From Butyricimonas sp. Marseille-P3923 (GTDB lineage: Bacteria > Bacteroidota > Bacteroidia > Bacteroidales > Marinifilaceae), in assembly GCF_900184685.1 (NCBI RefSeq), contig NZ_FXXL01000007.1, forward strand, positions 2,170,001 through 2,234,000: a stretch of DNA of 64,000 nucleotides, read 5' to 3'. The notes under the pieces were generated by a model that made no database searches, was not told the DNA's origin, and saw only the letters and a list, made by a program, of their open reading frames with translations. The translations under genes and the position numbers were made by a program. Below, in pieces: positions 8,593-27,130 of this stretch. How positions within the stretch are numbered: the stretch's first letter is position 1; each line of letters starts with the position of its first letter.

Positions 8593-8600
8593 AACACGAA

Positions 8601-8679
8601 TTGAAAATTGAAAGTTGAAAATTGAAAATTGGAATGACTAGGGAAGCCATTTTCAACTTTCAATTCTCCATCTTCAATT
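8601..8679. repeat. 7-bp-period inverted heptad array between folD and the SpmAB-like gene
   Basis: The left half repeats ttgaaaa/ttgaaag with ttg at 8601, 8608, 8615, 8622 and 8629. The right half is the inverse (caa or cca at 8654, 8661, 8668, 8675). The halves can fold into a long imperfect hairpin around a loop of about 18 nt, immediately after the folD stop on the minus strand. The period is strictly 7 bp. Confidence 0.75.
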
Positions 8680-10978: not shown

Positions 10979-11066
10979 AATTATCAATTGAAAATTATTT
11001 CTTTACTCCTAATTTATTCATTCCCCGCAAAATTAGTATTTTTAACGGAAAACACATTGCATTTCA

Positions 11067-11095
11067 TTTTCAATTTTCAATTTTCAATTTTCAAT
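11067..11095. repeat. 7-bp-period heptad array (TTTTCAA units)
   Basis: Four units with caa at 11071, 11078, 11085 and 11092, in the gap between the ACT-domain gene and ffh. Unlike neighbouring arrays no clear inverted half is seen here. The rest of the 116 bp gap is A+T-rich with no other recognisable feature. Confidence 0.7.
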
Positions 11096-11754
11096 TACTT
11101 CCGGCTGATATTTTTTAAAACCACAAACGTTTTATCTATTAAAGAGTTATCCACCACCACGGTAAATTCGTTCGTTGAAGAAATAACTTCAGTCAGGTTG
11201 ATACCCTCCCACGACAACTCTTTCATGATGCAATAATAAAAACCCGGTTGCAGGATATTTCCCTTGGGCAATTTCAACGTCACGGACGAAAGACCGTTCT
11301 GCTTGAAAATACATTGTTCCTCCTTGAAATACTCGTCCACAAGCTCCCCCATCACCTCGCTCACGACAAGGTTGGTTTCAAAAACACCCTGCACCATCGT
11401 GTAGAACACTTCCTCCCGACGGGATATGGATTTCAGTACCCGGATATGACAATCAACCAACGTGTTGGAATTTTTAAACGTGTAATCGCACAGGTTACTC
11501 CGCAAAATAATATCCCCCATGTTGTTCAGCAACTTTTTCAATTGCACCTGCTCCCGTACCTGCAGGTAAGGAGCCAATCTATTCAATGCCATCACGATCG
11601 CTCCCGCGTTAAGCGGTTTCCCCAACACGTTCTCCAATTCCGGCTGAATCTGCCTCGCCAATGCCGAAATATTAATAATCCCGGATGCCAAAGCCTCCGA
11701 CAAATAAGGTTTATGTTTTATGATTCCTTCTACTGCTTGTGCTACACTCATCAT
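11095..11754 (-). CDS. ACT-domain protein of unknown role
   Basis: This 219-residue cytoplasmic protein has no signal or membrane segment. The N-terminal half is helical (MMSVAQAVEGIIKHKPYLSE, LARQIQPELENVLG), resembling a small DNA-binding or dimerisation domain. The C-terminal half has the beta-alpha-beta-beta-alpha-beta pattern of an ACT domain, with the aspartokinase-like stretch WEGINLTEVISSTNEFTVVV at about residues 182-201. ACT domains bind small ligands such as amino acids, so a ligand-responsive regulator is plausible, but neither ligand nor target can be inferred. It is transcribed towards ffh with its own heptad arrays on both sides. Confidence 0.6.
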   Translation of the reverse strand: MMSVAQAVEGIIKHKPYLSEALASGIINISALARQIQPELENVLGKPLNAGAIVMALNRLAPYLQVREQVQLKKLLNNMGDIILRSNLCDYTFKNSNTLVDCHIRVLKSISRREEVFYTMVQGVFETNLVVSEVMGELVDEYFKEEQCIFKQNGLSSVTLKLPKGNILQPGFYYCIMKELSWEGINLTEVISSTNEFTVVVDNSLIDKTFVVLKNISRK

Positions 11755-11759
11755 GTTAA

Positions 11760-11788
11760 TTGAAAATTGAAAGTTGAAAATTGAAAAT
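11760..11788. repeat. 7-bp-period heptad array (TTGAAAA units)
   Basis: ttg occurs at 11760, 11767, 11774 and 11781. The array occupies the short gap between the prolyl-tRNA editing gene and the ACT-domain gene and nearly matches the left half of the array at 8601. Confidence 0.75.
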
Positions 11789-11802
11789 GATTCTTTCCAT
11801 AA

Positions 11803-13537: not shown

Positions 13538-13629
13538 CACCCCCAAGATAGGAATATTTAACAAAGAATGATCATATAAACAAATTCTCCTGAATGTCAG
13601 GAGGTAAACGCAAAAAATCTAACAGAACT

Positions 13630-16362
13630 ATGAGTACGAAGTACGTTTACACCTTTGGCGACGGAAAAGCAGAAGGAAAAGCAGACATGAAAAACCTGCT
13701 TGGAGGTAAGGGCGCCAATCTTGCCGAAATGAATCTCATCGGAGTTCCTGTACCTGCAGGATTCACTATCACGACAGAAGTTTGTACCCTTTACAACCAA
13801 GAAGGACGCGACTCTGTTATCAAATTAATCGAAAATGACGTGAAAGCCGGTATCGAGGCCACCGAGAAGTTAATGAACGCCAAATTCGGATCAAAGGGAG
13901 AAGCATTCCCTCTTTTGGTTTCCGTGCGTTCGGGAGCCCGAGTATCCATGCCGGGTATGATGGACACGGTGCTTAACTTGGGTATGAATGACGACGCCGT
14001 TAAAATCGTTGCCGAGAAATCGGGTAATGCCAGATTCGCTTGGGATTCCTATCGTCGCTTCGTGCAAATGTACGGAGATGTGGTAATGGGCGTTGCTGCC
14101 GGAAAAGGAGAACACAACCCGTTCGAAGTCGAGATCGATAAATTAAAAGCAGAAAAAAATATTACCAACGACACGGACTTCACCGCCGAAGACCTGCAAG
14201 AACTGGTTCGCCGCTTCAAAAGTGTCGTTAAAGCAAAAACTGGTAAAGATTTCCCAACCTGCCCGTGGGAGCAATTATGGGGAGCAATCTGTGCCGTGTT
14301 CGACTCATGGATGACGGAACGTGCCGTCCTGTATCGTCAATTGAATCAAATCCCGGAGGAATGGGGAACTGCCGTGAACGTGCAGGCTATGGTTTACGGG
14401 AACATGGGTGACAATTCCGCTACCGGGGTTGCCTTCACTCGTGACGCCGCTACCGGAGAAGACATCTTCAACGGTGAATACTTGATCAACGCACAAGGAG
14501 AAGACGTGGTTGCAGGTATCCGTACCCCGCAGGAAATCACGATCGAGGGCTCTCGCCGTTGGGCAAAAATGCAAAATATCTCCGAGGCAGATCGTAAATC
14601 CAAATATCCTTCATTGGAAGAGGCTATGCCGACCGCTTACGCGGAGTTGGACGCCGTTCAACAAAAACTGGAAGACTATTTCCACGATATGCAAGACCTT
14701 GAATTTACCATCCAAGACGGTAAATTATGGATGTTGCAAACCCGTAACGGGAAACGTACCGGTACTGCCATGGTAAAAATGGCCGTCGATATGTTGGCAC
14801 AAGGAATGATCGACGAGAAGACTGCACTACTCCGTCTGGAAGCAGCCAAACTGGATGAATTGCTTCACCCGGTATTCGACAAAGAAGCACAATCAAAAGC
14901 AAAAGTATTAACCAAAGGATTACCCGCGTCCCCGGGTGCCGCGACAGGACGTGTCGTATTCTTCGCCGACGAGGCAGAAGAATGGAAAGCCAAAGGAGAA
15001 AAAGTAATTCTGGTTCGTCTGGAGACTTCTCCGGAAGACTTGCGCGGTATGAACGTATCCGAAGGTATCCTTACCGCTCGCGGGGGTATGACCTCCCACG
15101 CTGCCGTGGTTGCCCGCGGTATGGGTAAATGCTGCGTATCCGGTGCCGGAGAAATCGTGGTAGACTACCACAAACGCACGTTCACAGTGAAAGGCATTAC
15201 CATCAATGAAGGTGACTGGATTTCATTGAACGGCTCCACGGGAGAAGTTTACTTGGGTAAAGTGGCTACAGCAGAAGCATCTTTGGACAAGGATTTCAAG
15301 GCTATCATGGAACTGGCAGAGAAACACACGCGTATGTACGTGAGAACAAATGCCGATACTCCCCACGATGCGCAAGTCGCTCGTGATTTCGGGGCTAGAG
15401 GTGTCGGTCTGTGCCGCACGGAACACATGTTCTTCGAAGGTGACCGTATCGACGCTATGCGCGAGATGATCCTTTCGGACACTGTCGAGGAACGCCGTAT
15501 CGCATTGGCAAAAATCCTCCCGATGCAAAGAAGCGACTTCGAGGGAATCCTTGAAGCCATGGACGGATTTGGTGTTACCATTCGTTTGTTAGACCCGCCA
15601 TTGCACGAGTTTACTCCCAATGAGCCGGAATCACAAAAATACATGGCAGAGAAAATGGGTATCTCTGTAGAAGTGGTGAAAGAAAAAGTAGACGCCCTAC
15701 ACGAGTTCAACCCGATGTTAGGTCACCGCGGTTGCCGTTTGGGTATTACCTACCCGGAAATCACCGAGATGCAGGCTCGTGCCATCATCGAAGCCGCTTG
15801 TAACCTCAAATTGAAAGGCTTGAACCCGAAACCGGAAATCATGGTTCCGCTGGTTGGTACCGTGAAAGAATTGAAACAACAAACTAACATCATCCGTTGC
15901 ACTGCCGACGTAGTATTCGCTGAAAAGGGCATCAAGGTAGATTATATGGTAGGAACCATGATCGAAATACCTCGCGCTGCTTTGACAGCCGATCAGATCG
16001 CCGAAGTTGCCGAGTTCTTCTCGTTCGGTACGAATGACTTGACTCAGATGACATTCGGATACTCTCGTGATGACGCCGGTAAATTCTTACCCGAATACAT
16101 CAAGAAAGGCATTCTGAAAACCGATCCGTTCGCCGTACTGGATCAAGAAGGTGTTGGTCAATTAGTTCAAATGGGTGCCGAAAAAGGACGTTCAGCTAAC
16201 AGCAAACTGAAACTCGGAATCTGTGGAGAGCACGGGGGAGAACCCTCTTCCGTCATCTTCTGCGACAAAGTGGGAATGGACTACGTGTCTTGTTCACCCT
16301 TCCGCGTTCCAATCGCCCGCTTGGCTGCGGCGCAGGCTGCAATTATGCATGCGAAAAAATAA
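13630..16362 (+). CDS. ppdK: Pyruvate, phosphate dikinase
   Basis: PPDK interconverts pyruvate + ATP + phosphate and phosphoenolpyruvate + AMP + pyrophosphate, in anaerobes often in the glycolytic direction. All domains are present: N-terminal nucleotide-binding domain (NLLGGKGANLAEM, SVRSGARVSMPGMMDTVLNL), swivelling phosphohistidine domain with the catalytic His in GGMTSHAAVVARGMGKCC, and a PEP/pyruvate barrel with GARGVGLCRTEHMFF, GHRGCRLG, SFGTNDLTQM and CGEHGGEP. The ATG at 13630 (MSTKYVYTFGDGK, 910 residues) matches family length; an in-frame ATG at 13594 would add 12 basic residues. Monocistronic, with promoter and terminator both visible. Confidence 0.98.
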   Translation: MSTKYVYTFGDGKAEGKADMKNLLGGKGANLAEMNLIGVPVPAGFTITTEVCTLYNQEGRDSVIKLIENDVKAGIEATEKLMNAKFGSKGEAFPLLVSVRSGARVSMPGMMDTVLNLGMNDDAVKIVAEKSGNARFAWDSYRRFVQMYGDVVMGVAAGKGEHNPFEVEIDKLKAEKNITNDTDFTAEDLQELVRRFKSVVKAKTGKDFPTCPWEQLWGAICAVFDSWMTERAVLYRQLNQIPEEWGTAVNVQAMVYGNMGDNSATGVAFTRDAATGEDIFNGEYLINAQGEDVVAGIRTPQEITIEGSRRWAKMQNISEADRKSKYPSLEEAMPTAYAELDAVQQKLEDYFHDMQDLEFTIQDGKLWMLQTRNGKRTGTAMVKMAVDMLAQGMIDEKTALLRLEAAKLDELLHPVFDKEAQSKAKVLTKGLPASPGAATGRVVFFADEAEEWKAKGEKVILVRLETSPEDLRGMNVSEGILTARGGMTSHAAVVARGMGKCCVSGAGEIVVDYHKRTFTVKGITINEGDWISLNGSTGEVYLGKVATAEASLDKDFKAIMELAEKHTRMYVRTNADTPHDAQVARDFGARGVGLCRTEHMFFEGDRIDAMREMILSDTVEERRIALAKILPMQRSDFEGILEAMDGFGVTIRLLDPPLHEFTPNEPESQKYMAEKMGISVEVVKEKVDALHEFNPMLGHRGCRLGITYPEITEMQARAIIEAACNLKLKGLNPKPEIMVPLVGTVKELKQQTNIIRCTADVVFAEKGIKVDYMVGTMIEIPRAALTADQIAEVAEFFSFGTNDLTQMTFGYSRDDAGKFLPEYIKKGILKTDPFAVLDQEGVGQLVQMGAEKGRSANSKLKLGICGEHGGEPSSVIFCDKVGMDYVSCSPFRVPIARLAAAQAAIMHAKK

Positions 16363-16382
16363 AGTCTAAACGACATATTTCT

Positions 16383-16412
16383 AAAAGCTTGGGTAACCCC
16401 AAGCTTTTTTTT
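16383..16412 (+). terminator. Rho-independent terminator of ppdK
   Basis: An 11 bp stem (AAAAGCTTGGG with CCCAAGCTTTT) closed by a 4-nt loop runs straight into T8, 20 bp after the ppdK stop codon. Textbook intrinsic terminator. Confidence 0.92.
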
Positions 16413-16509
16413 ATGCTTTCAAAAAGCATCTTTTCAACAAAATTAACCTGATTATCAAATCAGTACAATTATTTTCCCGTATACATATTAACTAATACAA
16501 GTAATAACC

Positions 16510-17709
16510 ATGGCATCAATAAAATTCAAACTCAGGACATCAATAAAACTAGGGAAACAAGCCTCTCTCTATATTCAACTTATTCACCAAAGACGAGTGA
16601 AAACAATCACCCTCCCTTACAAATTGTATTCTCATGAATGGGAACCTTTAAATGAAGAGATCATATTACAAAACGATAATACGCGATTCAATTATTTAAA
16701 AGAAGTCCAACAAGAAATTCTTAAATCAAAACAATTATTACACTCCATCATTTATCAACTTGAGCAACGACATTCTTTCACGACAAACGACATTCTTTCA
16801 CACTATAATAACCGTCAGAGTGGCAATTTCTTCCCCTTTATGCAAAAACAAATCAAGGAACTGCTCCAACGAGGAAAAAATCATACGGCACGAAATTATC
16901 AAACCACCTTACGTACATTTCAATCTTTTTGTGAACGGTCGGAAATTTACTTCAAGGATATAAACTCAAACATGATTAAGAAATTTGAAAACTACCTCAA
17001 ACAAAAAAACATCCAACCAAACACGATTTCTTTTTACATGAGAACTTTGCGCGCTGTCTATAACAAAGCTCTGGTTGAGGATCACCTGTTAAAAGATGAA
17101 AATCCGTTTCGTTTCGTCTATACCGGTATACCCAAAACAAAAAAAAGGGCGGTTAATGCATCTGTAATTCAACAGTTAATAGAACTGCATCTATCCAGCA
17201 ACAAGAGTCTTTCATTTGCCCGTGATCTATTCCTTTTTAGCTTCTACACTCGCGGTATGGCTTTTATTGATATGGCTTTCTTATTGAAATCTTCTATACA
17301 AGATAATTATCTCGTATACACCAGACATAAGACACGCCAAACATTAACAATCAAGCTTGTCCCGGAAATTTTAGATATCATAAAAAAATACTCGGCAATA
17401 ACCGATAAACATTATTTGTTACCCATCATAACCAAAACTCATATTCCCATTCATCGTCAGTATGAAAGCGCACAACGTTTATACAATAAACGACTCAAAA
17501 TATTATCAGATATCCTTCAGATATCTCCTGCACTAACATCCTATGTTGCGCGTCATTCATGGGCCACAATTGCACATCACAAGGGGATTCCTTTATCGGT
17601 CATCAGTCAAGGCATGGGACATACATCCACACATACAACAAATATCTATCTTGCATCACTTGACCATTCCGTGATAGATAAGGCAAATGAAGAGATTATC
17701 GCCCTGTAG
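16510..17709 (+). CDS. Tyrosine recombinase, putative DNA invertase of the fimbrial locus
   Basis: This 399-residue protein has an N-terminal arm-binding-like domain (to about 105), a SAM-like core-binding domain (about 110-205) and a C-terminal catalytic domain. Catalytic residues are visible: Arg248 (YTRGM), Arg348 (YVARHSW), His371 (GMGHTS) and the nucleophile Tyr380 (IYLAS). The YVARHSWATIA form, with the first His of HxxR replaced, is common in Bacteroidota chromosomal recombinases, including Tsr-type invertases. No other mobile-element gene is nearby; 50 bp downstream begins a segment flanked by inverted repeats, then the fimbrial operon, so promoter inversion is the likeliest job. An integrase remnant of a lost element is the alternative. 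Confidence 0.85.
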   Translation: MASIKFKLRTSIKLGKQASLYIQLIHQRRVKTITLPYKLYSHEWEPLNEEIILQNDNTRFNYLKEVQQEILKSKQLLHSIIYQLEQRHSFTTNDILSHYNNRQSGNFFPFMQKQIKELLQRGKNHTARNYQTTLRTFQSFCERSEIYFKDINSNMIKKFENYLKQKNIQPNTISFYMRTLRAVYNKALVEDHLLKDENPFRFVYTGIPKTKKRAVNASVIQQLIELHLSSNKSLSFARDLFLFSFYTRGMAFIDMAFLLKSSIQDNYLVYTRHKTRQTLTIKLVPEILDIIKKYSAITDKHYLLPIITKTHIPIHRQYESAQRLYNKRLKILSDILQISPALTSYVARHSWATIAHHKGIPLSVISQGMGHTSTHTTNIYLASLDHSVIDKANEEIIAL

Positions 17710-17758
17710 CCTGCTTTCCATTCTTTTACAGCAACATTTTGCTCTTCATATATATTAA

Positions 17759-17787
17759 CATTCCGCCTCTTTGTAAGAGGCGGAATA
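17759..17787 (+). repeat. Left inverted repeat of the putative invertible segment
   Basis: This 29 bp box matches the box at 18131-18159 in inverted orientation at 28 of 29 positions (mismatch 17766 versus 18152). The box is itself a perfect palindrome: arms ATTCCGCCTCTT and AAGAGGCGGAAT around the spacer TGT. Only the spacer gives it a direction. It begins 50 bp after the recombinase stop. It could also serve as a hairpin terminator for the recombinase mRNA, since ATTCCTTTTCT follows. Confidence 0.8.
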
Positions 17788-18130
17788 TTCCTTTTCTGTG
17801 GTGTAAAAATAAATATTTTTCATCATTATATGATAAATACTCTTGTGATTTAATATTATTTAACCTAACTTTTCTTGATACAACTGTAAAAAAAAGAGCA
17901 GCAAACAATCATTATCTACTATGTATCAACACGTTTGCAATATAGTTTCATGATTTAATATCATGAAATTCATCATTACTATATATTACACTGAAATATA
18001 GCGTATTACAAAATCATTATATCCTCAAACAATCCAATAAATACCAGATTGTTTACAATACCGGAATCAACACTTCTATTCAAATTCATAAATATGTAAT
18101 TTACAGTGTATTAAAACAAACACAACTATC
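17788..18130. other. Putative invertible segment (343 bp) upstream of the fimbrial operon
   Basis: The segment between the two inverted repeats is very A+T-rich and has no plausible gene. At its centre (17946-17968) is a perfect palindrome with 9 bp arms TTTCATGAT and ATCATGAAA; its centre is within 2 bp of the centre of the whole element. No textbook TAnnTTTG box was found on either strand. The best candidate is on the minus strand, TTTG (18120-18117) 22 bp before TATTTATG (18094-18087), which would point at the recombinase now and at the fimbrial operon after inversion, that is an OFF state in this assembly. That promoter call is weak. Confidence 0.6.
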
Positions 18131-18159
18131 TATTCCGCCTCTTACAAAGAGTCGGAATG
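18131..18159 (-). repeat. Right inverted repeat of the putative invertible segment
   Basis: Inverted copy of 17759-17787 with one mismatch (T at 18152). Arms ATTCCGCCTCTT and AAGAGTCGGAAT surround the spacer ACA, the reverse complement of TGT in the left copy. It ends 190 bp before the first fimbrial gene. The 18160-18349 leader has no recognisable promoter or gene. Confidence 0.8.
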
Positions 18160-18349
18160 ATTTTAATAATGCGGTGTTTAAAATTTATTTAATTTAACTA
18201 TATGAGAATCAGCTATATGTTTACCGAAAGTTTATTATTTGCAATGATATGTATTTATACATATCACAAGGCAGTATGGTCATTTTTTCGGTTGCATCAA
18301 AATCGTCCAGAAGATAATCGCAAAGTTCATTAGATTAAAAATACAGGAA

Positions 18350-18922
18350 ATGAAAAGATGGTTATTATTAGTAACAGGTCTATTACTTTTAAGTAGCGGG
18401 CAAACTTTCTCTCAAAAAGTCGGGATAAAGACAAATGCTGTCTATTGGGCTACAGCAACCGCCAATATCGGCATAGAATTCAAATTAGGTAAAAAGACCA
18501 CGTTTGATTTATCAGGGAATTATAACCCATGGTCCTTTTCTAATAATAAAAAGTGGAAACATTGGCTCGTTCAACCCGAATTTCGCTATTGGCTTTGCGA
18601 GAATTTCAACGGTCATTTTTTCGGCACACATCTGCTTGGCGGACAACTCAATGCCGGCAATGTAAAACTTCCGTTCGGGCTACTCCCCGGGCTGAAACAT
18701 CAAAGGTACGAGGGAGGATTCTACGGAGGAGGATTAACTTACGGTTATCAATGGTTGTTAAGCAAACGCCTAAACCTTGAAACCTGCATCGGGGGCGGTT
18801 ACATCCGCGTGAACTATGACAAATATAATTGCGAAAAATGTGGCGAGTGGAAATACAAGGGACATAAAAACTACTGGGGAATCACCAAAGTCGCCATATC
18901 CATTATATACCTCATTAAATAA
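18350..18922 (+). CDS. DUF3575-family protein, first gene of the fimbrial operon
   Basis: This 190-residue exported protein has a signal peptide (MKRWLLLVTGLLLLSSGQTFSQ) and then a DUF3575-type beta-rich domain: VGIKTNAVYWATATANIGIEF, FDLSGNYNPW, LVQPEFRYW and a Gly/Tyr-rich middle (YEGGFYGGGLTYGYQW). The pattern suggests a small outer-membrane beta-barrel. DUF3575 genes regularly precede DUF3868 and fimbrillin genes in Bacteroidales fimbrial loci, so a part in outer-membrane assembly or anchoring of the fimbria is likely; this is from context, not from a known activity. It is 14 bp upstream of the next gene. Confidence 0.85.
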   Translation: MKRWLLLVTGLLLLSSGQTFSQKVGIKTNAVYWATATANIGIEFKLGKKTTFDLSGNYNPWSFSNNKKWKHWLVQPEFRYWLCENFNGHFFGTHLLGGQLNAGNVKLPFGLLPGLKHQRYEGGFYGGGLTYGYQWLLSKRLNLETCIGGGYIRVNYDKYNCEKCGEWKYKGHKNYWGITKVAISIIYLIK

Positions 18923-18936
18923 TAGAAGACACGACC

Positions 18937-20403
18937 ATGAAAAGAATGATATATACCATACTAATATTGCTTTTAGGAAGTGGCAGCGCGTGGAGTCAGA
19001 AAGAATACCTGAGAAATATTCGGGTATTGAATAACGAAATGAAAAAAAATAAAGCCGATGTGGACGTCTGTATAAATCTCGATGTAAGCCAAATAAAAGT
19101 CCGCAGACAACACAGCATCCGGCTGATTCCTGTCATTATTTCGAAAAACGAAAGCAAGAGTCAGGAATTACCGGCTATTATCATCAACGGGCGTACACGT
19201 GCTCTGGTGCATCAACGCATAGAGCGGCTCACAGGGCAACCTTATCCTTACAAGGCACAAACTGTTATACGCCGTTACAACCGGGAAAAACAGGAAATAA
19301 ACTACACCGCCTCAATCCCTTTCCAACAATGGATGAGAGGCAGCAAATTAATCATCCGGGAAGAAGTAAGCGGGTGTACCGATTGCATGGCAGCCGGTTA
19401 CAATCAAGGTGCGACAGATACCATCGCTTCGTCTTGCCTCGCTTCGCCCTTGCCGATATTTACCCTCGATTTCAAGCAACCGAAAGAGGAAATCATCAAA
19501 ACAAGGGAAAAGAGCCGCGAAGCCAGATTACAGTTCCGTCAAGACAGCCGGAAAATTCTACCGGAATACAAAAACAATCATAAAGAACTGGCTGCCATCA
19601 AACAATCTATAACAGAAGTCCAAGATGATAAGAACGTCATGATCAAGGCTATCTACATCACGGGATACGCCTCCCCGGAAGGTAGCCGCGAATATAATCT
19701 CACCATCTCCAAGGCCAGAGCCGAAGCACTTGCCCGATACCTGCAAGACGAACTCAAAATCGCTCCGGAACAGATTCACGCAGACTGGAAAGGTGAAGAC
19801 TGGCAAGGACTGCGCGAAGAGGTAGAAAAACGCCCGAAACTCCTGCACCAGAACAAAGTGCTCGCTATCATCGATAATTGTACAGATCCGGATAAATGTG
19901 AAGAAATCTTCAAAGAATTGGATGATAACGGGGAAATCTACAAACGGTTGCTAAATGAATGCTATCCTCCGTTACGGAAAAACGACTATCGCGTACAATA
20001 CGAAGTCCGAAATTTCAACTTGGAAGAGGCGAAACAAGTAATTAAAACCAACCCGAAACTATTAAGCCTGTACGAGATATACCTCGTAGCCCAAGCATAC
20101 GGGAACGCCCCTGTCCTCCAAGAACAAATTATCCACACGGCAGCCGAGGCCTATCCGGAGAACGGAATCGCGGCGAGTAATGCCGCCCGGCTCGATTTGC
20201 AAAAAGGCAATATCCGGGCAGCAATCAACCGTCTTGAAAAAGCCAAAGCCGATCCGGACACGTGGGGTGCGCTCGGCGTGGTTTATGCCCGGGACGAACA
20301 ATGGGAACTTGCCAAACAGTACCTCGTCAAAGCCACTACGCAAGGCGATAACGAGGCTCGAGAGAATCTTCAAAAACTAGAAACATATATACAAGAACCA
20401 TAA
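18937..20403 (+). CDS. DUF3868 protein with OmpA-like and TPR-like regions
   Basis: This 488-residue exported protein has a signal peptide (MKRMIYTILILLLGSGSAWSQ), an N-terminal DUF3868 region (about 40-160, LRNIRVLNNEM through SIPFQQWMRGSKL), an OmpA-like segment (about 235-290; YITGYASPEG then LTISKARAEALARYL) and C-terminal TPR-like helices (about 370-485; AARLDLQKGNIRAAINRLEKA, LGVVYARDEQWELAKQYL). OmpA-like domains bind peptidoglycan, so the protein may tie the fimbrial machinery to the cell wall. It belongs to the fimbrial operon between DUF3575 and the major fimbrillin genes. Confidence 0.85.
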   Translation: MKRMIYTILILLLGSGSAWSQKEYLRNIRVLNNEMKKNKADVDVCINLDVSQIKVRRQHSIRLIPVIISKNESKSQELPAIIINGRTRALVHQRIERLTGQPYPYKAQTVIRRYNREKQEINYTASIPFQQWMRGSKLIIREEVSGCTDCMAAGYNQGATDTIASSCLASPLPIFTLDFKQPKEEIIKTREKSREARLQFRQDSRKILPEYKNNHKELAAIKQSITEVQDDKNVMIKAIYITGYASPEGSREYNLTISKARAEALARYLQDELKIAPEQIHADWKGEDWQGLREEVEKRPKLLHQNKVLAIIDNCTDPDKCEEIFKELDDNGEIYKRLLNECYPPLRKNDYRVQYEVRNFNLEEAKQVIKTNPKLLSLYEIYLVAQAYGNAPVLQEQIIHTAAEAYPENGIAASNAARLDLQKGNIRAAINRLEKAKADPDTWGALGVVYARDEQWELAKQYLVKATTQGDNEARENLQKLETYIQEP

Positions 20404-20443
20404 AAGATTGAATTGACATCAAATTACATTAAATTTTTAGATT

Positions 20444-21520
20444 ATGAAATTAAACAAGTACTTATTAATCGCAGTTGCCAGTCTAGGACTATTTGCCTGC
20501 AACAATGACAAAGAAGAAGCCACTCCCAGCGGTCTGAAAGCAATCTCTTTAAACATCGTAAATCCCGAATTGTCGAGAGCTGAACAGACTCCCACGACCG
20601 GAGAGCATGGAGGGACATTAGCAATTACCCCCTCTCACATTTTCGTAAAATTATTAGGGACGGAGCCGGTTATGTCAGCAACTTTCACAAGCCTTGAGGA
20701 AGCCAATACATACACGTTCTTTGATGTACCGACAAGCTGTACCGGAGTGGAAGTTATCATCAATAACTACTCCGCTTATAACTCCACCGCCACGGCGGAA
20801 ACCGCCAAAGAAACAAATGTTACTTGCTACGGCTCTTCAACAACACTAACCCCCGACGGGGTAGCAACGAAAGAAAACGGAACTCTTCAATATGACCTCT
20901 ACAAAACAACAGTTACCGTTAAACCCATCGTGGCCCGTATTGAAGCATCCGGGATCAAACTAATGCAAACAAAAAATCCCTCCCTATCGGCAACAACGGA
21001 AACTTCAAAATATGCCACTCTTAATTTCGCCGGAATTTTCCTGAATGGATACTGCGAAAATGGTACATTAGCGAATAACATCGTAACAGCGAGTAACCCA
21101 CAAGTCATTGAATCAGATGATGCGGAAACTGTTTTAACCGCAGCCAAAGCATTGTCCATGGGAGACTTTTTAGAAACACCTGCAACAATTTTTGACGCCA
21201 CCTTCCCTACAACAGAAAAATGCTATGCATACAACTTCTTTGTAAATGCAGACAACAACAAACCAATCATCACATTAGCCTTTACCGACGCAACCTTAAA
21301 AGCAGGCTCATGCTCACCGATTCGTTTTGCCGTAGTTTCGAAATATAACGGAAAAGAAAATTTCAAATTCGAAGCCGGGAAGCTATATCGAATCACCAAA
21401 TTAGAAGTAACAGATGAAAATATCACCGGAGATATCACCGGTAATACCTCAATCGCGGTTAACGCCACGATTGTGGTTGAACCTTGGGTTATCCAGGATG
21501 TAACCGTTGAATGGAAATAA
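20444..21520 (+). CDS. Major fimbrillin (FimA/Mfa1-type) shaft subunit
   Basis: This 358-residue lipoprotein precursor has Cys19 after a signal (GLFAC). The region LSR-AEQ (Arg45-Ala46) fits the trypsin-like cleavage that frees the acceptor groove in Porphyromonas-type fimbrillins. The C-terminus (VNATIVVEPWVIQDVTVEWK) has the conserved VxPW...V-x-EW form of the donor strand in FimA/Mfa1 shaft proteins. The fimbria would be a surface adhesin assembled by donor-strand exchange. The gene is followed by a strong terminator (21562-21596), which should give more message for this subunit than for the downstream minor ones. Confidence 0.85.
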   Translation: MKLNKYLLIAVASLGLFACNNDKEEATPSGLKAISLNIVNPELSRAEQTPTTGEHGGTLAITPSHIFVKLLGTEPVMSATFTSLEEANTYTFFDVPTSCTGVEVIINNYSAYNSTATAETAKETNVTCYGSSTTLTPDGVATKENGTLQYDLYKTTVTVKPIVARIEASGIKLMQTKNPSLSATTETSKYATLNFAGIFLNGYCENGTLANNIVTASNPQVIESDDAETVLTAAKALSMGDFLETPATIFDATFPTTEKCYAYNFFVNADNNKPIITLAFTDATLKAGSCSPIRFAVVSKYNGKENFKFEAGKLYRITKLEVTDENITGDITGNTSIAVNATIVVEPWVIQDVTVEWK

Positions 21521-21561
21521 GACACTAATATCTTCGGCACCACACGCCAAAGATACTCCCA

Positions 21562-21596
21562 GGAACGCCCCACGAGGCGAAGGGGCGTTCCTTTTT
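21562..21596 (+). terminator. Intrinsic terminator after the major fimbrillin gene
   Basis: A perfect 10 bp GC-rich stem (GGAACGCCCC with GGGGCGTTCC, 10-nt loop) is followed by T5. It lies inside the operon, between the shaft subunit and the Mfa2-like anchor gene, and is expected to act as a partial terminator. Confidence 0.88.
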
Positions 21597-21625
21597 CAAA
21601 TTTTACATACATACAGTACAACAAG

Positions 21626-22522
21626 ATGAAACGTTTTGAGAAAATATTACTGCTTCTATTAATTATCAGTGTGAATACAAGCTGCATAAAAGAAGATCTT
21701 GATGATTGCGAGAAAACACGCCTTACCTTTATATATAAAGGGGATGGTCAAGAAGATATATTTCATACTAAAATCAACAAGGTTGACCTGTATGTTTTCG
21801 ATGCCGACCACCACTTGGTAACCACCAAAGTATTAAATCAAAGTACCCTAAAAAAACATCAAGGAACCAAACTAAACTTACCGTCCGGTCAATACCACCT
21901 CGTCGCGGTAGGCAACGCGGGTGAACGCACAACAATAAAAGATATTCAATGCGGTTCATTGCAAAATATCATGGCAATGCACCCCAACCAAGACAAAGAT
22001 AAAGTGCCCGGTCAAGACCCCCTGTACATGGGCTGCCATGTCATCGAGGTACTTAAAGACCGTTGGTCAGACCACACGGTAGAATTCAAAAGTTCCCACC
22101 TGAAAGTATCCGTGGAAGTCCGGGGGGTGGGATACGCCGGAACGGGACGTGCAGCTAATCCGTCCGTTTCCGTCGTGCTAAAAAACGTCTATCCACACAC
22201 GAACTTCACCAACGAATCGTGCGGAGAATTATGCGCCCATTACCCGGAATTCGTGTTCGATGAAAACACTCACGTCATGCAATCGACAGACTTAAACATA
22301 TTCAGGTACAAAGGTGGATGTGCAATGGTAATAGAAGTTCTGAACCGAGAGGGCAACGTCATTGCCTCCAAAAGCATCGCGGAATTCCTGCGTGAAAATC
22401 CTAAAGTGGATATTTACAAACAGGAAGCCCTGCTCCCGCTCCTTATTGAATTCACTCCATTGCAAGTGGAAATCCGCTTGCCCGAGTGGTATATCAATGA
22501 CGTGACACCAGATTTCCATTAA
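21626..22522 (+). CDS. FimB/Mfa2-family fimbrial anchor lipoprotein
   Basis: This 298-residue lipoprotein (Cys20 in NTSC) matches the Mfa2/FimB family, which anchors the fimbria in the outer membrane and limits its length. Signatures are an early LTFIYKGDGQED and KVDLYVFDADHHLV strand pair, LPSGQYHLVAVGNAG, DPLYMGCHVIEV, an internal domain duplication, and a short C-terminus (LPEWYINDVTPDFH) without the donor strand of shaft subunits. It lies between the terminator at 21562-21596 and the accessory subunit, 19 bp before the latter. Confidence 0.88.
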   Translation: MKRFEKILLLLLIISVNTSCIKEDLDDCEKTRLTFIYKGDGQEDIFHTKINKVDLYVFDADHHLVTTKVLNQSTLKKHQGTKLNLPSGQYHLVAVGNAGERTTIKDIQCGSLQNIMAMHPNQDKDKVPGQDPLYMGCHVIEVLKDRWSDHTVEFKSSHLKVSVEVRGVGYAGTGRAANPSVSVVLKNVYPHTNFTNESCGELCAHYPEFVFDENTHVMQSTDLNIFRYKGGCAMVIEVLNREGNVIASKSIAEFLRENPKVDIYKQEALLPLLIEFTPLQVEIRLPEWYINDVTPDFH

Positions 22523-22541
22523 TCATATAGAAGAACTTGTT

Positions 22542-23459
22542 ATGAAAAACAGATTCAACTTCATCATATTCGCGTTTATTCTTTTGCTGACATCCTGCAT
22601 CAAAGACAAGGCACAAGAAGAAGAAAAGGTTTCCGTGGTGTTGACATTCAACACGCGTTCCGTTAGCGAAACTTACGACACCGATTCGGGTGAAGGTATT
22701 CAATCCATCCGTGTAATCATCGCTCAAAACGGCACGGTCGTAAAAAATGAATATTATCCCGAACTAAGCTACAATGCCTCACTCTCCTCCCGCACGTTCA
22801 CAATATTCGATGTACCCGTGGGAAATGCGGATTTCTATATCATCGCCAATGCCGATAAATCAGGGATTACGGATTGGACACCCTACAATGTCGGGCAAAC
22901 ACCATCGTTCGACCTACTGACTCGACACGTCATGACAACCGCAAACGGAATCGTTGAGCCACCATTCCCCATCGCACAACAATTCTTGAATCAATCGATA
23001 CGGACTAACGGGCAAGAATTAAATTTCTCCATCATCCGTTCCGTTGTCAAGTTAAATTTCATGTTCACGAACAAGAGCGACAAAGACATCACGCTCGAAC
23101 AAATCAAACTGGGGACGTTCGTACCGGATAAAACATTTTTATTCCCCCAAAAATCACGACCGGTAGATCTGAATTATCATCCATTAAACATGAATAATAT
23201 AAATCAAGCCGTTCAAGCCGGAACCTCATTCATGAAAACGGTATATATTTACGAGAATACCGTCACGGATACCGATGCATACACGGTAGCCATCGTTGTC
23301 GACGGATACACCTACGAACCGCTTTCATTAAACCTGACATCAATAACCCGCAACACGCAGATAAATATAAAAATGACGATTACCCCTAGCAATGTAGGAC
23401 TTTCATACATTGTTGCCGATTGGACAAACACCCCTGTAACGATTCCCCCGTTTGATTAA
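22542..23459 (+). CDS. Fimbrillin-like accessory subunit
   Basis: This 305-residue lipoprotein (Cys19, LLTSC) shows the two-domain fimbrillin pattern: SVVLTFNTRSV, FTIFDVPVGNADFYIIANAD, a middle FSIIRSVVKLNFMF strand and a C-terminal NTQINIKMTITPSNVGLSYIVADW. It resembles neither the shaft nor the anchor closely and is probably a tip-complex or adaptor component (the role played by Mfa3/Mfa4 or FimC/FimD in Porphyromonas). Which one cannot be assigned from the sequence. Confidence 0.75.
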   Translation: MKNRFNFIIFAFILLLTSCIKDKAQEEEKVSVVLTFNTRSVSETYDTDSGEGIQSIRVIIAQNGTVVKNEYYPELSYNASLSSRTFTIFDVPVGNADFYIIANADKSGITDWTPYNVGQTPSFDLLTRHVMTTANGIVEPPFPIAQQFLNQSIRTNGQELNFSIIRSVVKLNFMFTNKSDKDITLEQIKLGTFVPDKTFLFPQKSRPVDLNYHPLNMNNINQAVQAGTSFMKTVYIYENTVTDTDAYTVAIVVDGYTYEPLSLNLTSITRNTQINIKMTITPSNVGLSYIVADWTNTPVTIPPFD

Positions 23460-23474
23460 ATAAAATATATAACC

Positions 23475-26387
23475 ATGAAAACCATCTACCATTTAATATA
23501 TCTAGCGTATGCCGGTATCCTTTTCCTAACCGGTTGTTCAGACGATATATTGGAAAAAAACGCACAAGTCATCGAGGGGCAACCTACCAAAGTAAATTTA
23601 AACTTCGGGGTAGCTAACTCGTCACAACTATCCAGAGCAACCTCGCCCGTCAAAGATGAACACAAGGTGAACAACCTGTACGTTTTCATTTTTAATGCCG
23701 ACGGTTCTCTGTCTAAAAGCCAATTTTTCGAATACGGGAACTTACAGGATAAAATGGAAAAGGATGACATCAACAACACACTCACGAGCGGCAAAGTTAC
23801 TATCGAAACCGTATCCGGAAGCGGGAAAACGATTTGGGCAATCGCGAATATCGCTAACGTTTCAACTAACGCCATGAGAGATATCACCCCCGCCGTGTTG
23901 GACGAGATAAGTAATCTGGAGGAATTACAAGCACTAACAGCCTCTTTGCAACAAGAAACGATTGCCCGGGGAACAGCCTTTCTCATGAGTGGCACCCTCG
24001 AAGATGCATCCGGGAATCCTAAAAAAGTAGACATCCCCGTCGGGGGCGAAATAAGCGACAATATCATTCTAAAACGCGTCGATGCCAAAATCACGTTCAA
24101 CATCCAAACCAAAAAAGGAATCACCTTCACTCCCACGGAATGGAAAGTTGTCAAAGCCTCCCAAAAGGTCTATTTACTACCCAATGCATCCGATCCAGAA
24201 GGCGCTGACACGGACTATTTCGAAACGTCGTGGGCAAACTACGAGGGTGAAGGTGACAATTTTGGGAAGACCTTTTCTTTTTACGTGGCAGAAAATCGCA
24301 AATCGCCCATCAAATCCATTCCAACAATGACAGAGGACGGCACCCCTCTGACCCCGGAGGAACAATATAATTACCGGGAAAAACAACTCAAGAACCCCGT
24401 GACGGACGGCAAACCCGGACAAACCGTAACCAACGGGGCATACGAATACGCTGACCCCAACTCCACGTATGTGATACTAAAAGGAAACATCACGTACAAA
24501 TATGGTGAAATACAAGAAGTTTCCGCGAATGTCATGTACACGATACACTTGGGGTTCGTGAATGGCGCCGAGGATTTTAACACCAACCGCAATGTACATT
24601 ACACGTACACGGTTACCATCAACAGTGCCGAAAGTATCATTGTTGAAGTTAACGATGGAAAAGAGAACCAACCCGGTGCAGAAGGCGAGATTACTATTGC
24701 CGACAATATCATTAACTTAGATGCCCATTATGAAACGAGATGCATTACTTTCACTCAAGCACAAATAGACCCGAGTTTAACGTGGTATGTAAAAACCGCT
24801 TTCAGCGAAGGGATGCCGGAGCAAAATCCTCAAGACTACAAATGGATCAAGTTTTTACTTAACACCAAAAATGGTTCCGGTTATGATACCAAATTCCAAA
24901 AATACCCCGGAGATGCGAAAAGCTATACAGACGAGGAAATCAAGACTTTGGATTGTCAAATAACAAACGCCAAACTTATAAACGTGGCTCAACTTGTACG
25001 GATTCTAAAAAGAAACAAAGAAATATATATTGCAAACAATAACAGTAACAAGGGAACTCTTTTCGACGGAGGGTTTAAAATTACATTCACGGCTTTTATC
25101 GAGGAAAATTATTACACACAAAACCCGGAAACAGGAGACAACAGCACAACTTTATGGAAAAAATTTGTCAATCAACCGGAACGAATCATGAATATCCTCT
25201 CCAACACGAGATACAGCCCGGACGGGGAAAGCGTGAGGCACGTCGCCGTTACTTCGTTCCGGCAAAAATCCATTCAAACGATGTATAACATCTCGGCAGG
25301 CGAAGGGTTGCAAACGGCATGGGGAACGGAATGTGTACAAGAAACAGATAAACGCCCGTTCTGGAAGGAAAAAACCGCCAATAATTCAGGAGTACCCACC
25401 TATAATGATTCTCGAAACGGTCGTTCCAATACTATAAAATTATGGAATACAAGTACAAATCCCCGTTGGGACACTTATATTGAACCGACAACCAATGAAA
25501 TGAAAACAGTATACAATTACGCCCGCTACAATTGCATGCAACGAAATCGGGATCTAGACGGAAACGGGAAAATTGATGCCGATGAAGTACGCTGGTACTT
25601 GGCTGCCATCGATCAATTGACAGACCTTTGGATCGGAGAAAATTCATTTGACGCCGCCGCCCGCCTTTTCAAAGGCTCCACGTGGATTGAAGACTGGTAT
25701 GTCAGCAGCACCGTACCGGGACGTTACAGTGTAAATATAGGTTCAGACTGGTTCCCCCGTTATGAATACTGGGACAACCCCACCGTACTATGGTCTTCCG
25801 AAGGCTCCTCTATCGGTGAGATGAATACAGTAACTTCCTATAACACAAGTAAAACATTTAATTACCGCTGTGTACGTAATCTCGGTATTGCTCCGGATGA
25901 TGCCACAACAATACCCCAAGATTTTGCCACATACGACGCCACCACCCATGTACTCTCCCTCGAGTACCTAGACGAAAAATCCATCCGTGCTTACTCGCAG
26001 GAAGAAGAACTGCCCGAACACCACGAACGGCAGGCAGACAACTTACCATGGTGGAATTTTGAAGTAAACCCGGGCTCGCACTTGTTACCAAGCGGGATTG
26101 CCAATTGGATTAAAATCCGTGATACCGTCAACTCCGGCAAGTCACCTTGTCCACCCGGTTGGCGTGTACCAAATCAACGAGAACTAGCTCTTATGCTGTC
26201 ACGTGTAAAAAATGATGGCGGTTGGGAACTAGATAATCACATGTCAAGAACCCGCTTTTCCATGAACCCGACAGGGAGCTATCGGCATGGTTTCTCTGTT
26301 ACGTCTGCGGCAGGAAAGCTATTCCTGATTAATAACTCCGACGAAACAGGGGGAGTACGATGCGTAAGAGATAAATCTTCAAAATAA
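23475..26387 (+). CDS. Large DUF4906-like fimbrial tip candidate with an EF-hand-type loop
   Basis: This 970-residue lipoprotein precursor (Cys21, LTGC) is the largest protein of the operon. It starts with a fimbrillin-like domain (VNLNFGVANSSQLSRATSP, VNNLYVFIFNADGSL) and continues with a long beta-rich region, then a C-terminal region typical of DUF4906 proteins (YNYARYNCMQRNRDLDGNGK..., CPPGWRVPNQRELALML, GGVRCVRD). Residues 693-704 (DLDGNGKIDADE) fit the 12-residue EF-hand calcium loop with acidic or Asn ligands at 1, 3, 5, 9 and 12. Position and size suggest a tip adhesin, by analogy with Mfa5. Ligand unknown. Confidence 0.75.
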   Translation: MKTIYHLIYLAYAGILFLTGCSDDILEKNAQVIEGQPTKVNLNFGVANSSQLSRATSPVKDEHKVNNLYVFIFNADGSLSKSQFFEYGNLQDKMEKDDINNTLTSGKVTIETVSGSGKTIWAIANIANVSTNAMRDITPAVLDEISNLEELQALTASLQQETIARGTAFLMSGTLEDASGNPKKVDIPVGGEISDNIILKRVDAKITFNIQTKKGITFTPTEWKVVKASQKVYLLPNASDPEGADTDYFETSWANYEGEGDNFGKTFSFYVAENRKSPIKSIPTMTEDGTPLTPEEQYNYREKQLKNPVTDGKPGQTVTNGAYEYADPNSTYVILKGNITYKYGEIQEVSANVMYTIHLGFVNGAEDFNTNRNVHYTYTVTINSAESIIVEVNDGKENQPGAEGEITIADNIINLDAHYETRCITFTQAQIDPSLTWYVKTAFSEGMPEQNPQDYKWIKFLLNTKNGSGYDTKFQKYPGDAKSYTDEEIKTLDCQITNAKLINVAQLVRILKRNKEIYIANNNSNKGTLFDGGFKITFTAFIEENYYTQNPETGDNSTTLWKKFVNQPERIMNILSNTRYSPDGESVRHVAVTSFRQKSIQTMYNISAGEGLQTAWGTECVQETDKRPFWKEKTANNSGVPTYNDSRNGRSNTIKLWNTSTNPRWDTYIEPTTNEMKTVYNYARYNCMQRNRDLDGNGKIDADEVRWYLAAIDQLTDLWIGENSFDAAARLFKGSTWIEDWYVSSTVPGRYSVNIGSDWFPRYEYWDNPTVLWSSEGSSIGEMNTVTSYNTSKTFNYRCVRNLGIAPDDATTIPQDFATYDATTHVLSLEYLDEKSIRAYSQEEELPEHHERQADNLPWWNFEVNPGSHLLPSGIANWIKIRDTVNSGKSPCPPGWRVPNQRELALMLSRVKNDGGWELDNHMSRTRFSMNPTGSYRHGFSVTSAAGKLFLINNSDETGGVRCVRDKSSK

Positions 26388-26408
26388 TTCGACATAGAAA
26401 AACAAGAT

Positions 26409-26669
26409 ATGAATAAACGAGAACTTTCATTATTAGTAGCAGACCGAACCGGGCTCTCGAAAGGCGAGGCACTGAAAGCGGTGCAAGCCACGATAGATTG
26501 CATCACCGAAGCTCTGCAAACAGGACAACGAATAACGTTAATGGGATTCGGGGCGTTCTTCTCGTATGAACTCCCCCCTCGCGTTACATATAATCTTTAT
26601 ACCAAAGAACGGGAACAACTGGAATCACGCAAGGTGATCAAATTCAGACCCACCTTCCCCGACAAATAA
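26409..26669 (+). CDS. HU/IHF-family DNA-binding protein
   Basis: This 86-residue protein has the HU fold: N-terminal helices (MNKRELSLLVADRTGLSKGE, ALKAVQATIDCITEAL), then GQRITLMGFGAFFSYE and a C-terminal strand (RKVIKFRPTFPDK). The usual DNA-intercalating arm with the RNP motif is short and altered (PPRVTYNLYTKEREQLES). It is the last gene of the fimbrial operon, 21 bp after the tip candidate. HU-like proteins bend DNA and assist site-specific recombination, so it may help inversion of the upstream switch or regulate the operon; that is inference from position. Confidence 0.85.
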   Translation: MNKRELSLLVADRTGLSKGEALKAVQATIDCITEALQTGQRITLMGFGAFFSYELPPRVTYNLYTKEREQLESRKVIKFRPTFPDK

Positions 26670-26683
26670 ATGCAACCAACCAC

Positions 26684-26714
26684 GAGGCTGTCCAAAAATG
26701 GGCAGTCTCTTTTG
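26684..26714 (+). terminator. Terminator of the fimbrial operon
   Basis: GAGGCTGTCC (26684-26693) pairs with GGGCAGTCTC (26700-26709) using two G-T wobbles, with a 6-nt loop and a following TTTTG. It lies 14 bp after the HU gene. Confidence 0.65.
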
Positions 26715-26850
26715 ACACTTAGCTATTCAGTCAATTAGTTGTATTCTCAATGTTATACGATTATCATTTTCTACCATCGGTTTACTTTGGTTTACAGTAG
26801 TAAACTTTTTCTAGAGAGAATCCGAAGTAATACTGTTAAAGAAAGGGATT

Positions 26851-26940
26851 AAAACCGGTACAAAGCCGCTTCAAAGCCGGTGCAAAGCCGCTCGTGAACG
26901 TCTTTGAAACGTCTTTGTATCGAAGGTGAAACGTCTTTGT
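26851..26940. repeat. 11-bp-period degenerate repeat array
   Basis: Four units with core aaagccg or aaaaccg begin at 26851, 26862, 26873 and 26884, exactly 11 bp apart. Then come three units with cgtctttg (the inverse of caaagacg) at 26899, 26910 and 26932, with a diverged unit at 26921, again in 11 bp steps. It lies in the 460 bp gap between the fimbrial operon and the convergent HsmA-like gene. The rest of that gap holds only the operon terminator and A+T-rich sequence. Confidence 0.75.
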
Positions 26941-27130
26941 TCCCTTATTACTCCCTTATCTCAACGGACTCTTATCGCATACCCACCGTGCCTAAAAAAA
27001 AGTTTACCGGAAACCTAAGTAAACTTATACTGGAATTTTCATCAAAAATATCCCTAAAACCAACCGGGATATTAGCATATAAGCTCCCAGTATACTGCGA
27101 TTATAACCGGGACAAGTAACATTCTTCCTA

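Follow-up and report, generated by a model that had tools for sequence, protein, structure and literature searches.

Inversion of promoters by tyrosine recombinases is known in the Bacteroidales, including promoters of surface proteins and of phase-variable fimbriae (PMC8748976, PMC11892184, PMC12632263, PMC4747536, PMC3090145), and this literature also describes two adjacent segments beside one invertase, as well as a single enzyme acting at two loci, one local and one distant. In the invertible promoters of Bacteroidales conjugative elements (PMC8748976), the invertase lies immediately upstream and the inverted repeats downstream, which is also the order in the locus described below. The promoters of these switches have a −33 TTTG and a −7 TANNTTTGY element, one class has two adjacent segments, and the genes that they serve are glycan or resistance genes, whereas our locus leads into a pilus operon. 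The pMMCAT plasmids are placed in the tree of the same study.

In Bacteroides fragilis, the tyrosine recombinase Tsr19 flips two promoters of surface structures, one local and one distant, and the local one is mostly OFF in culture (PMC4747536, PMC3090145). Tsr19 serves exopolysaccharide and lipoprotein loci, and it is likened to our locus by description and not by sequence. As for the inverton groups of gut Bacteroidota, PMC11892184 places invertons near surface genes, as here, and states that tyrosine recombinases near invertons are generally not themselves inverton-regulated; the site CCGCCTCT-N5-AGAGGCGG of our locus is likened to these invertons by gene context and not by repeat motif. 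Mpi of B. fragilis also inverts promoters of surface loci, with one enzyme for many loci, but it is a serine recombinase and differs in both family and chemistry from the tyrosine recombinase considered here. Tsr15 of B. fragilis, reportedly the subject of work by Weinacht in 2004, is said to be a tyrosine recombinase of the same kind as Tsr19, and is again likened to our locus by description. For Butyricimonas and inverton taken together, the literature yielded a review only. Because promoter inversion by tyrosine recombinases has already been described in the Bacteroidales, the switch proposed here for Butyricimonas sp. Marseille-P3923 would be a further case of a known class. All positions refer to the window, i.e., the whole stretch of 64,000 nucleotides that was analysed.

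Results

Architecture of the locus

A sequence-only reading of the window had proposed a phase-variable promoter between a tyrosine recombinase with intact catalytic residues and a fimbrillin operon, bounded by 29-bp arms identical at 28 of 29 positions around an A+T-rich, gene-free gap of 343 bp, within 50 bp of the recombinase and 190 bp ahead of the first fimbrial gene. On recomputation these coordinates are exact to the base (Table 1): the 29-nt arms are complementary at 28 positions, the 343 nt between them have a GC content of 24.5% compared with 43.8% for the window, and their longest closed ATG ORF is 27 amino acids. The recombinase stop codon is 49 bp from the left arm, and the right arm 190 bp from the ATG of the DUF3575 gene at 18350. 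The catalytic residues are intact as claimed; the recombinase ORF is unbroken, and Arg248, Lys274, Arg348, His371, and Tyr380, whose columns we take to be the catalytic ones, are invariant in an alignment of eight sequences. In all eight, the usual first His of the HxxR motif is replaced by a tyrosine (Tyr345). The recombinase matches Arm-DNA-bind_5 just under the cut-off, NCBIfam gives Xer matches only, all below cut-off, and the PDB holds no sequence match for the recombinase or the two pilin candidates. Beyond the right arm, the genes from 18350 to 26669 are colinear with uninterrupted fimbrial ORFs, and the matches to DUF3575, DUF3868, Mfa2, and FimA domains bear out the fimbrillin operon. 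Of the components of a type V pilus, an Mfa2 anchor and a FimA domain are present, and stalk and tip are tentatively assigned from position or weak matches.

Table 1. Features of the putative switch and the pilus operon, in window coordinates
Feature	Position	Strand	Basis or remark
Tyrosine recombinase, 399 aa, proposed invertase	16510..17709	+	Phage_int_SAM_5 (PF13102 2.2e-24), Phage_integrase (PF00589 1.6e-10)
Left arm, putative recombination site ATTCCGCCTCT-TTGTA-AGAGGCGGAAT	17759..17787	+	Also possible terminator of recombinase gene
Putative invertible segment, 343 nt, 24.5% GC, geneless	17788..18130	.	Repeat and composition analysis
Candidate promoter TTTA-N22-TATTTTTACA beside left arm	17802..17837	-	Points at recombinase (OFF); would face fimbrial operon once inverted
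Palindrome TTTCATGAT-TTAAT-ATCATGAAA at segment centre	17946..17968	.	Palindrome scan
Right arm, putative recombination site	18131..18159	-	Outer-half mismatch weakens hairpin (-12.5 kcal/mol)
Palindrome TGATATGTAT-TT-ATACATATCA, 10-bp arms, in fimbrial leader, possible regulator site	18245..18266	.	Palindrome scan
DUF3575 protein, first operon gene	18350..18922	+	PF12099 1.2e-74
DUF3868 / OmpA-like protein	18937..20403	+	Domain search
358-aa protein, probable stalk pilin	20444..21520	+	Position only; no family match
Mfa2-type anchor protein	21626..22522	+	PF08842 4e-32
305-aa protein, weak match to tip adhesin FimD	22542..23459	+	NF052322 7.6e-6, 24.9 bits vs cut-off 170
970-aa protein, N-terminal FimA domain, probable large tip or minor pilin	23475..26387	+	PF06321 5.4e-9
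HU/IHF-like DNA-binding protein, end of gene run	26409..26669	+	PF00216 6.1e-18

The site of a tyrosine recombinase is expected to consist of two half-sites flanking a crossover spacer. Each arm is itself palindromic, the left one with a 12-bp stem and a TGT loop, a feature absent from the earlier reading, and the core common to related sites is CTCT-N5-AGAG, extended here to ATTCCGCCTCT. Because the arms are palindromic, the spacer alone sets the orientation of a site. Inversion and not deletion is to be expected, since the direct-repeat register gives a match at only 23 of 28 positions, compared with 28 of 29 in the inverted one. The sole mismatch (17766 versus 18152) is located in the outer half of the right arm, i.e., in the part that would not be moved by a flip of the segment, and lies outside both spacer and core.

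Across the 64 kb, eight inverted pairs of at least 22 nt with arms no more than 1,500 nt apart were listed, and the pair at 17759–18159 is the only one of these whose arms are more than 30 nt apart and that is not a simple repeat of the ATTTTCAATT type. A comparable pair arose in none of 20 Markov shuffles of the locus, and with up to three mismatches the arm site is present at two places in the genome, both of them here. Inverted simple repeats of the ATTTTCAATT type are found at 11064–11097 with 11757–11790, and also at 8600–8671, and matching stretches occur near the same genes in relatives. In the middle of the segment, a perfect palindrome with 9-bp arms (17946–17968) lies no more than 2 nt from the exact centre, and is absent at the centre of four other long segments checked, two of which represent the same locus. 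Rfam gave nothing at gathering scores for 15500–27000.

Related recombinases and their inverted pairs

The closest relative of the recombinase that was met has about 48% identity. In the family, 27 of 56 genomes (own included) match at E ≤1e-60, with a best other identity of 44%, and in the order 21 of 393 (own included) match at 1e-88, with a best other identity of 46%. From 68 distinct matches listed, 56 loci, i.e., the window and others, were compared with flanks of 1.5 kb, and an inverted pair with palindromic arms is present in 18 of them, compared with about 0.05 expected from Markov shuffles; in this count near-identical loci (e.g., L047 and L105) stand separately, and L028 is included with N as its inter-arm stretch. 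None of 11 weaker recombinase loci in the own genome has such a pair. The association between recombinase and pair is strong but not universal, since 38 of the 56 loci, including both close paralogues in the own genome (L007 and L008), show no pair in the 1.5-kb flanks. All 23 segments measured, from 20 loci, sit 3′ of the recombinase at a distance of 22–736 bp, a set that omits L028, the first L109 pair (a different sequence), and a cross-pairing in L032. Of 29 pairs, 25 have CTCT ahead of the spacer and 23 have AGAG behind it; the centre was set automatically, and seems misplaced in four cases (both pairs of L049, the second of L050, and L103). Among 20 longer stretches (L051–L070), nine contain a DUF3575 homologue, and an inverted pair is positioned 44–143 bp ahead of the start of the DUF3575 match in L057, L058, L061, L062, L064, and L070.

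Several of these loci have further features of their own. Runs of N fill exactly the space between the arms beside homologous recombinases in L061 (10281–10340, 60 N) and L066 (9887–10465, 579 N), which would fit an assembler facing both orientations. Two tandem segments with similar half-sites and different spacers follow a homologous recombinase in L059 (9783–10408), L060 (7142–7767), L050 (6236–6772), and L049 (13354–13942). The own genome has a second candidate invertible segment, at 11769–12287 of L051 (G000:C1:540768–541286), with 30-nt inverted arms and a gap of 459; it precedes a 975-aa ORF and is 4.3 kb from a 44%-identical recombinase.

A flip at a homologous locus

In the pMMCAT plasmids of Bacteroides and Parabacteroides, which are nearly identical to one another, a recombinase with 44.7% identity to that of the window is followed by two such segments and then by a capsule operon led by UpxY. 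The arms are of a TTTTCTC type with 178-nt gaps, whereas the window has longer, GC-containing arms and a 343-nt gap. In NZ_CP072238.1 compared with L049, 216 nt (L049:13727–13942), exactly from arm to arm, are reversed at 100% identity, and the flanks are colinear at 99.6–100%. The pMMCAT query matched 20 records, 18 of which cover at least 80%, and the flip is present in one of the 18; six records were compared by script, and the remainder judged by a one-piece match. The other fetched homologous loci checked for flips showed none. In two pMMCAT copies (L072 and L073), a transposase gene is inserted between the recombinase and the inverted segments. Among plasmids, the switch of L050 was found in L050 alone, and that of L058 in none. 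As for the window locus, the segment is absent from all five other genomes of the genus, the viral contigs contain neither the exact site nor a relative of the recombinase, and among the plasmids there was no more than a 75-nt match, internal to the recombinase gene; a flipped or second copy was not found in the genus genomes, viral contigs, or plasmids searched.

The same site in a Bacteroidales MAG

With a free 3-nt centre, the exact site was found in one other record of the species genomes, the Bacteroidales MAG G056, in a scan from which the own genome was possibly left out. G056 has the window site as inverted pairs on contigs C1, C40, C33, and C4 (166–357 nt start to start), with one additional direct copy on C4 and a single site on contig C13, 104 nt short of its end. 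When the seven central letters are left free, all four pairs agree there in the inverted register, and each of the five loci has a centre of its own. In the loci compared above, spacer identity within a pair is partly by construction, because the pairs were detected as inverted repeats, and the independent spacer evidence is that of the four G056 pairs, which were found with the free 7-nt centre. At up to three mismatches there are 14 places in G056: the four loci account for nine and the end of C13 for one, and the other four are isolated matches with two to three mismatches, which, together with two matches of the reversed control pattern, represent the background.

The G056 sites precede genes that, from their N-termini, read as lipoprotein-like and that at C40 and C13 encode fibronectin type III domains; the C4 sites precede a DUF3575–DUF3868 operon. 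The closest homologue of the window enzyme is also found in G056 (48% over residues 90–397, 302-aa ORF), with two TAA codons within the match, at its start judging by coordinates, and a second homologue (44% over 106–397) belongs to a 517-aa ORF with an unmatched first part. No site was found in the 10–11 kb around either homologue, and in 39 other genomes around G056 the site is absent at up to two mismatches. Elsewhere in the order, besides the own genome, one of 392 genomes has a single match with at most one mismatch, and the reversed control gives one match each in 5 of 393.

Promoter candidates and present orientation

Near one arm, a TAnnTTTGCA-like element (at least six of eight letters, best-match rule) is present in 21 of 21 homologous segments, a set from which the window, L028, and L105 were left out; the full count is favourable by design, because training used the highest-scoring match close to the ends of each segment, whichever strand it lay on. 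In 17 of the 21, the element points at the recombinase. A matrix built without the window has its best site in 17709–18349 on the minus strand at 17811–17802 (TATTTTTACA, 9.9 bits, next best 4.3). This score is reached anywhere in 37 of 500 shuffles, and is exceeded in-sample by 19 of the 21 training sites. Judged as an inverton, the locus has repeats of 10–40 nt bounding an intergenic segment, spacers matching in the inverted register, a nearby tyrosine recombinase of the Phage_integrase family with intact catalytic residues, and a surface-structure operon directly downstream (DUF3575, DUF3868, Mfa2, and FimA domains), and its best match to TTTG / TANNTTTG within the segment, TTTA-N22-TATTTTTACA, is weak and one base off the −7 consensus. 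A TTTTA variant of the −7 element also occurs in L114.

A plain consensus scan ranks two other sites higher, one on the minus strand at 18120–18087, also toward the recombinase, and one on the plus strand at 17842–17873, inside the segment and directed toward the pili in the present orientation. It also lists a plus-strand site outside the segment, at 18193–18223, which, if real, would make expression orientation-independent. With the matrix, the two higher-ranked sites score far lower, and 18193–18223 does not reach the best ten. A sigma-70-type scan of 16400–18400 was uninformative, with 9 matches compared with 10.5 expected. The sequence-only reading had found no strong rightward promoter, in keeping with OFF, and had called its promoter evidence weak. 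OFF is weakly supported here: the best matrix match, although degenerate, lies on the minus strand and is directed toward the recombinase, while the plus-strand candidate at 17842–17873 speaks against it. From these weakly supporting matches, the assembly orientation is likely OFF, but not securely so, since the consensus scan prefers other sites, including the plus-strand candidate inside the segment.

Discussion

Based on these comparisons, the stretch 17759–18159 is very probably a site-specific invertible promoter that is flipped by the adjacent recombinase. The invertible promoter of the sequence-only reading is well supported by the association of the recombinase clade with palindromic pairs (18 of 56 loci), the pMMCAT flip, the spacer-matched pairs in G056, and the promoter-like elements at the expected place, i.e., by comparison and not by reads. 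The repeats, the spacer match, the gene order, the site common to related loci, and the flip at a homologue are seen directly. Against the reading, the recombinase at the observed flip is only 44.7% identical to that of the window, and the flip occurs in one of 18 records.

We infer that the two sites are substrates of this enzyme, that the promoter functions, and that the pilus is switched on and off. In the mechanism that we propose, the recombinase would bind the palindromic half-sites with the core CTCT...AGAG, here ATTCCGCCTCT, and cut the matching TTGTA spacers of the two opposed sites, whereupon the 343-nt segment would flip. A promoter in the segment beside one arm would be directed toward the recombinase in the OFF state, and in the other orientation, ON, would read into the DUF3575–DUF3868–Mfa2–FimA type V pilus operon; the state in the assembly would most likely be OFF.

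The arms could instead be ordinary terminators that are alike by chance, one ending the recombinase transcript and the other insulating the fimbrial operon. The left arm, 49 bp past the recombinase stop, has an RNA fold of −18.7 kcal/mol and a T-rich tail, and is scored as terminator-like (three hits over 2 kb, compared with 0.6 expected). The right arm, with its mismatched stem (−12.5 kcal/mol), is not called a terminator, and a stem-loop with a T tract is found at the left arm only. Furthermore, the site is present nowhere else in the own genome, its position and core are common to a pair seen flipping, and the four inverted pairs in G056 have 7-nt spacers that are alike within a pair and different between pairs. 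Since terminators would not yield spacer-matched inverted pairs, a terminator-only reading was rejected on the G056 evidence, and we consider it improbable. A double role of the arm as site and terminator is possible, and the left arm may terminate the recombinase transcript. The switch might also be defunct, with sites and enzyme present and the promoter decayed or the orientation locked, as the degenerate match TATTTTTACA, below 19 of 21 training sites (in-sample), and the mismatch in one arm could suggest. However, the recombinase ORF and its catalytic columns are intact, the mismatch is outside the spacer and core, the fimbrial ORFs are unbroken, and the TTTTA variant of the −7 element is shared with L114, and we regard a loss of function as unlikely.

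The genomic setting brings in a further alternative, a genomic island with the recombinase as its integrase and the arms as relics of attachment sites. Five relatives of the genus lack, at the corresponding position, a stretch of about 31.7 kb (16413–48081), whose left edge lies about 100 bp ahead of the recombinase start. In L130, L133, and L134 the gene preceding the recombinase (13594–16362, ppdK in our own reading) joins the 48.1-kb sequence within about 80–130 bp, and in L131 and L132 other inserts lie in between; the stretch is therefore particular to this genome among those compared. It contains the recombinase, the pilus operon, and genes read as efflux, ABC, SusC/SusD-like, and sigma/anti-sigma. 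However, its edges share no word of at least 11 nt and have no border repeats, the window contains no tRNA, the genome has no third copy of the site, and related recombinases adjoin inverted pairs, one of which flips. An island integrase with attachment sites was rejected on the missing shared edge words and third site, and is highly improbable.

For the invertible promoter, the G056 loci raise the additional idea that shared half-sites combined with spacers private to each pair allow one recombinase to run several switches without joining different loci, and that the arms perhaps attenuate the ON transcript. This is a tentative proposal, and we hold it to be rather doubtful. Its basis is that five loci in G056 have the half-sites of the window and five spacers (four full pairs, one near a contig end), and the window would then be a single-address version. 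In B. fragilis, transcription is inversely correlated with how many repeats separate the promoter from the genes (PMC4747536), and by this analogy a palindromic arm could possibly act as an attenuator here; the mismatch in the operon-side arm may then relieve attenuation of the ON transcript. A rule of private spacers was not found described in the passages on Bacteroidales promoter inversion drawn on here.

The window extends the known class of tyrosine-recombinase switches by a well-defined pilus switch for which site, spacer, and likely promoter can be named. The site rule, i.e., the core CTCT-N5-AGAG with subgroup-specific flanks, may help to locate such switches without reads. If true, the private spacers would explain how one recombinase controls several surface loci without scrambling the chromosome.
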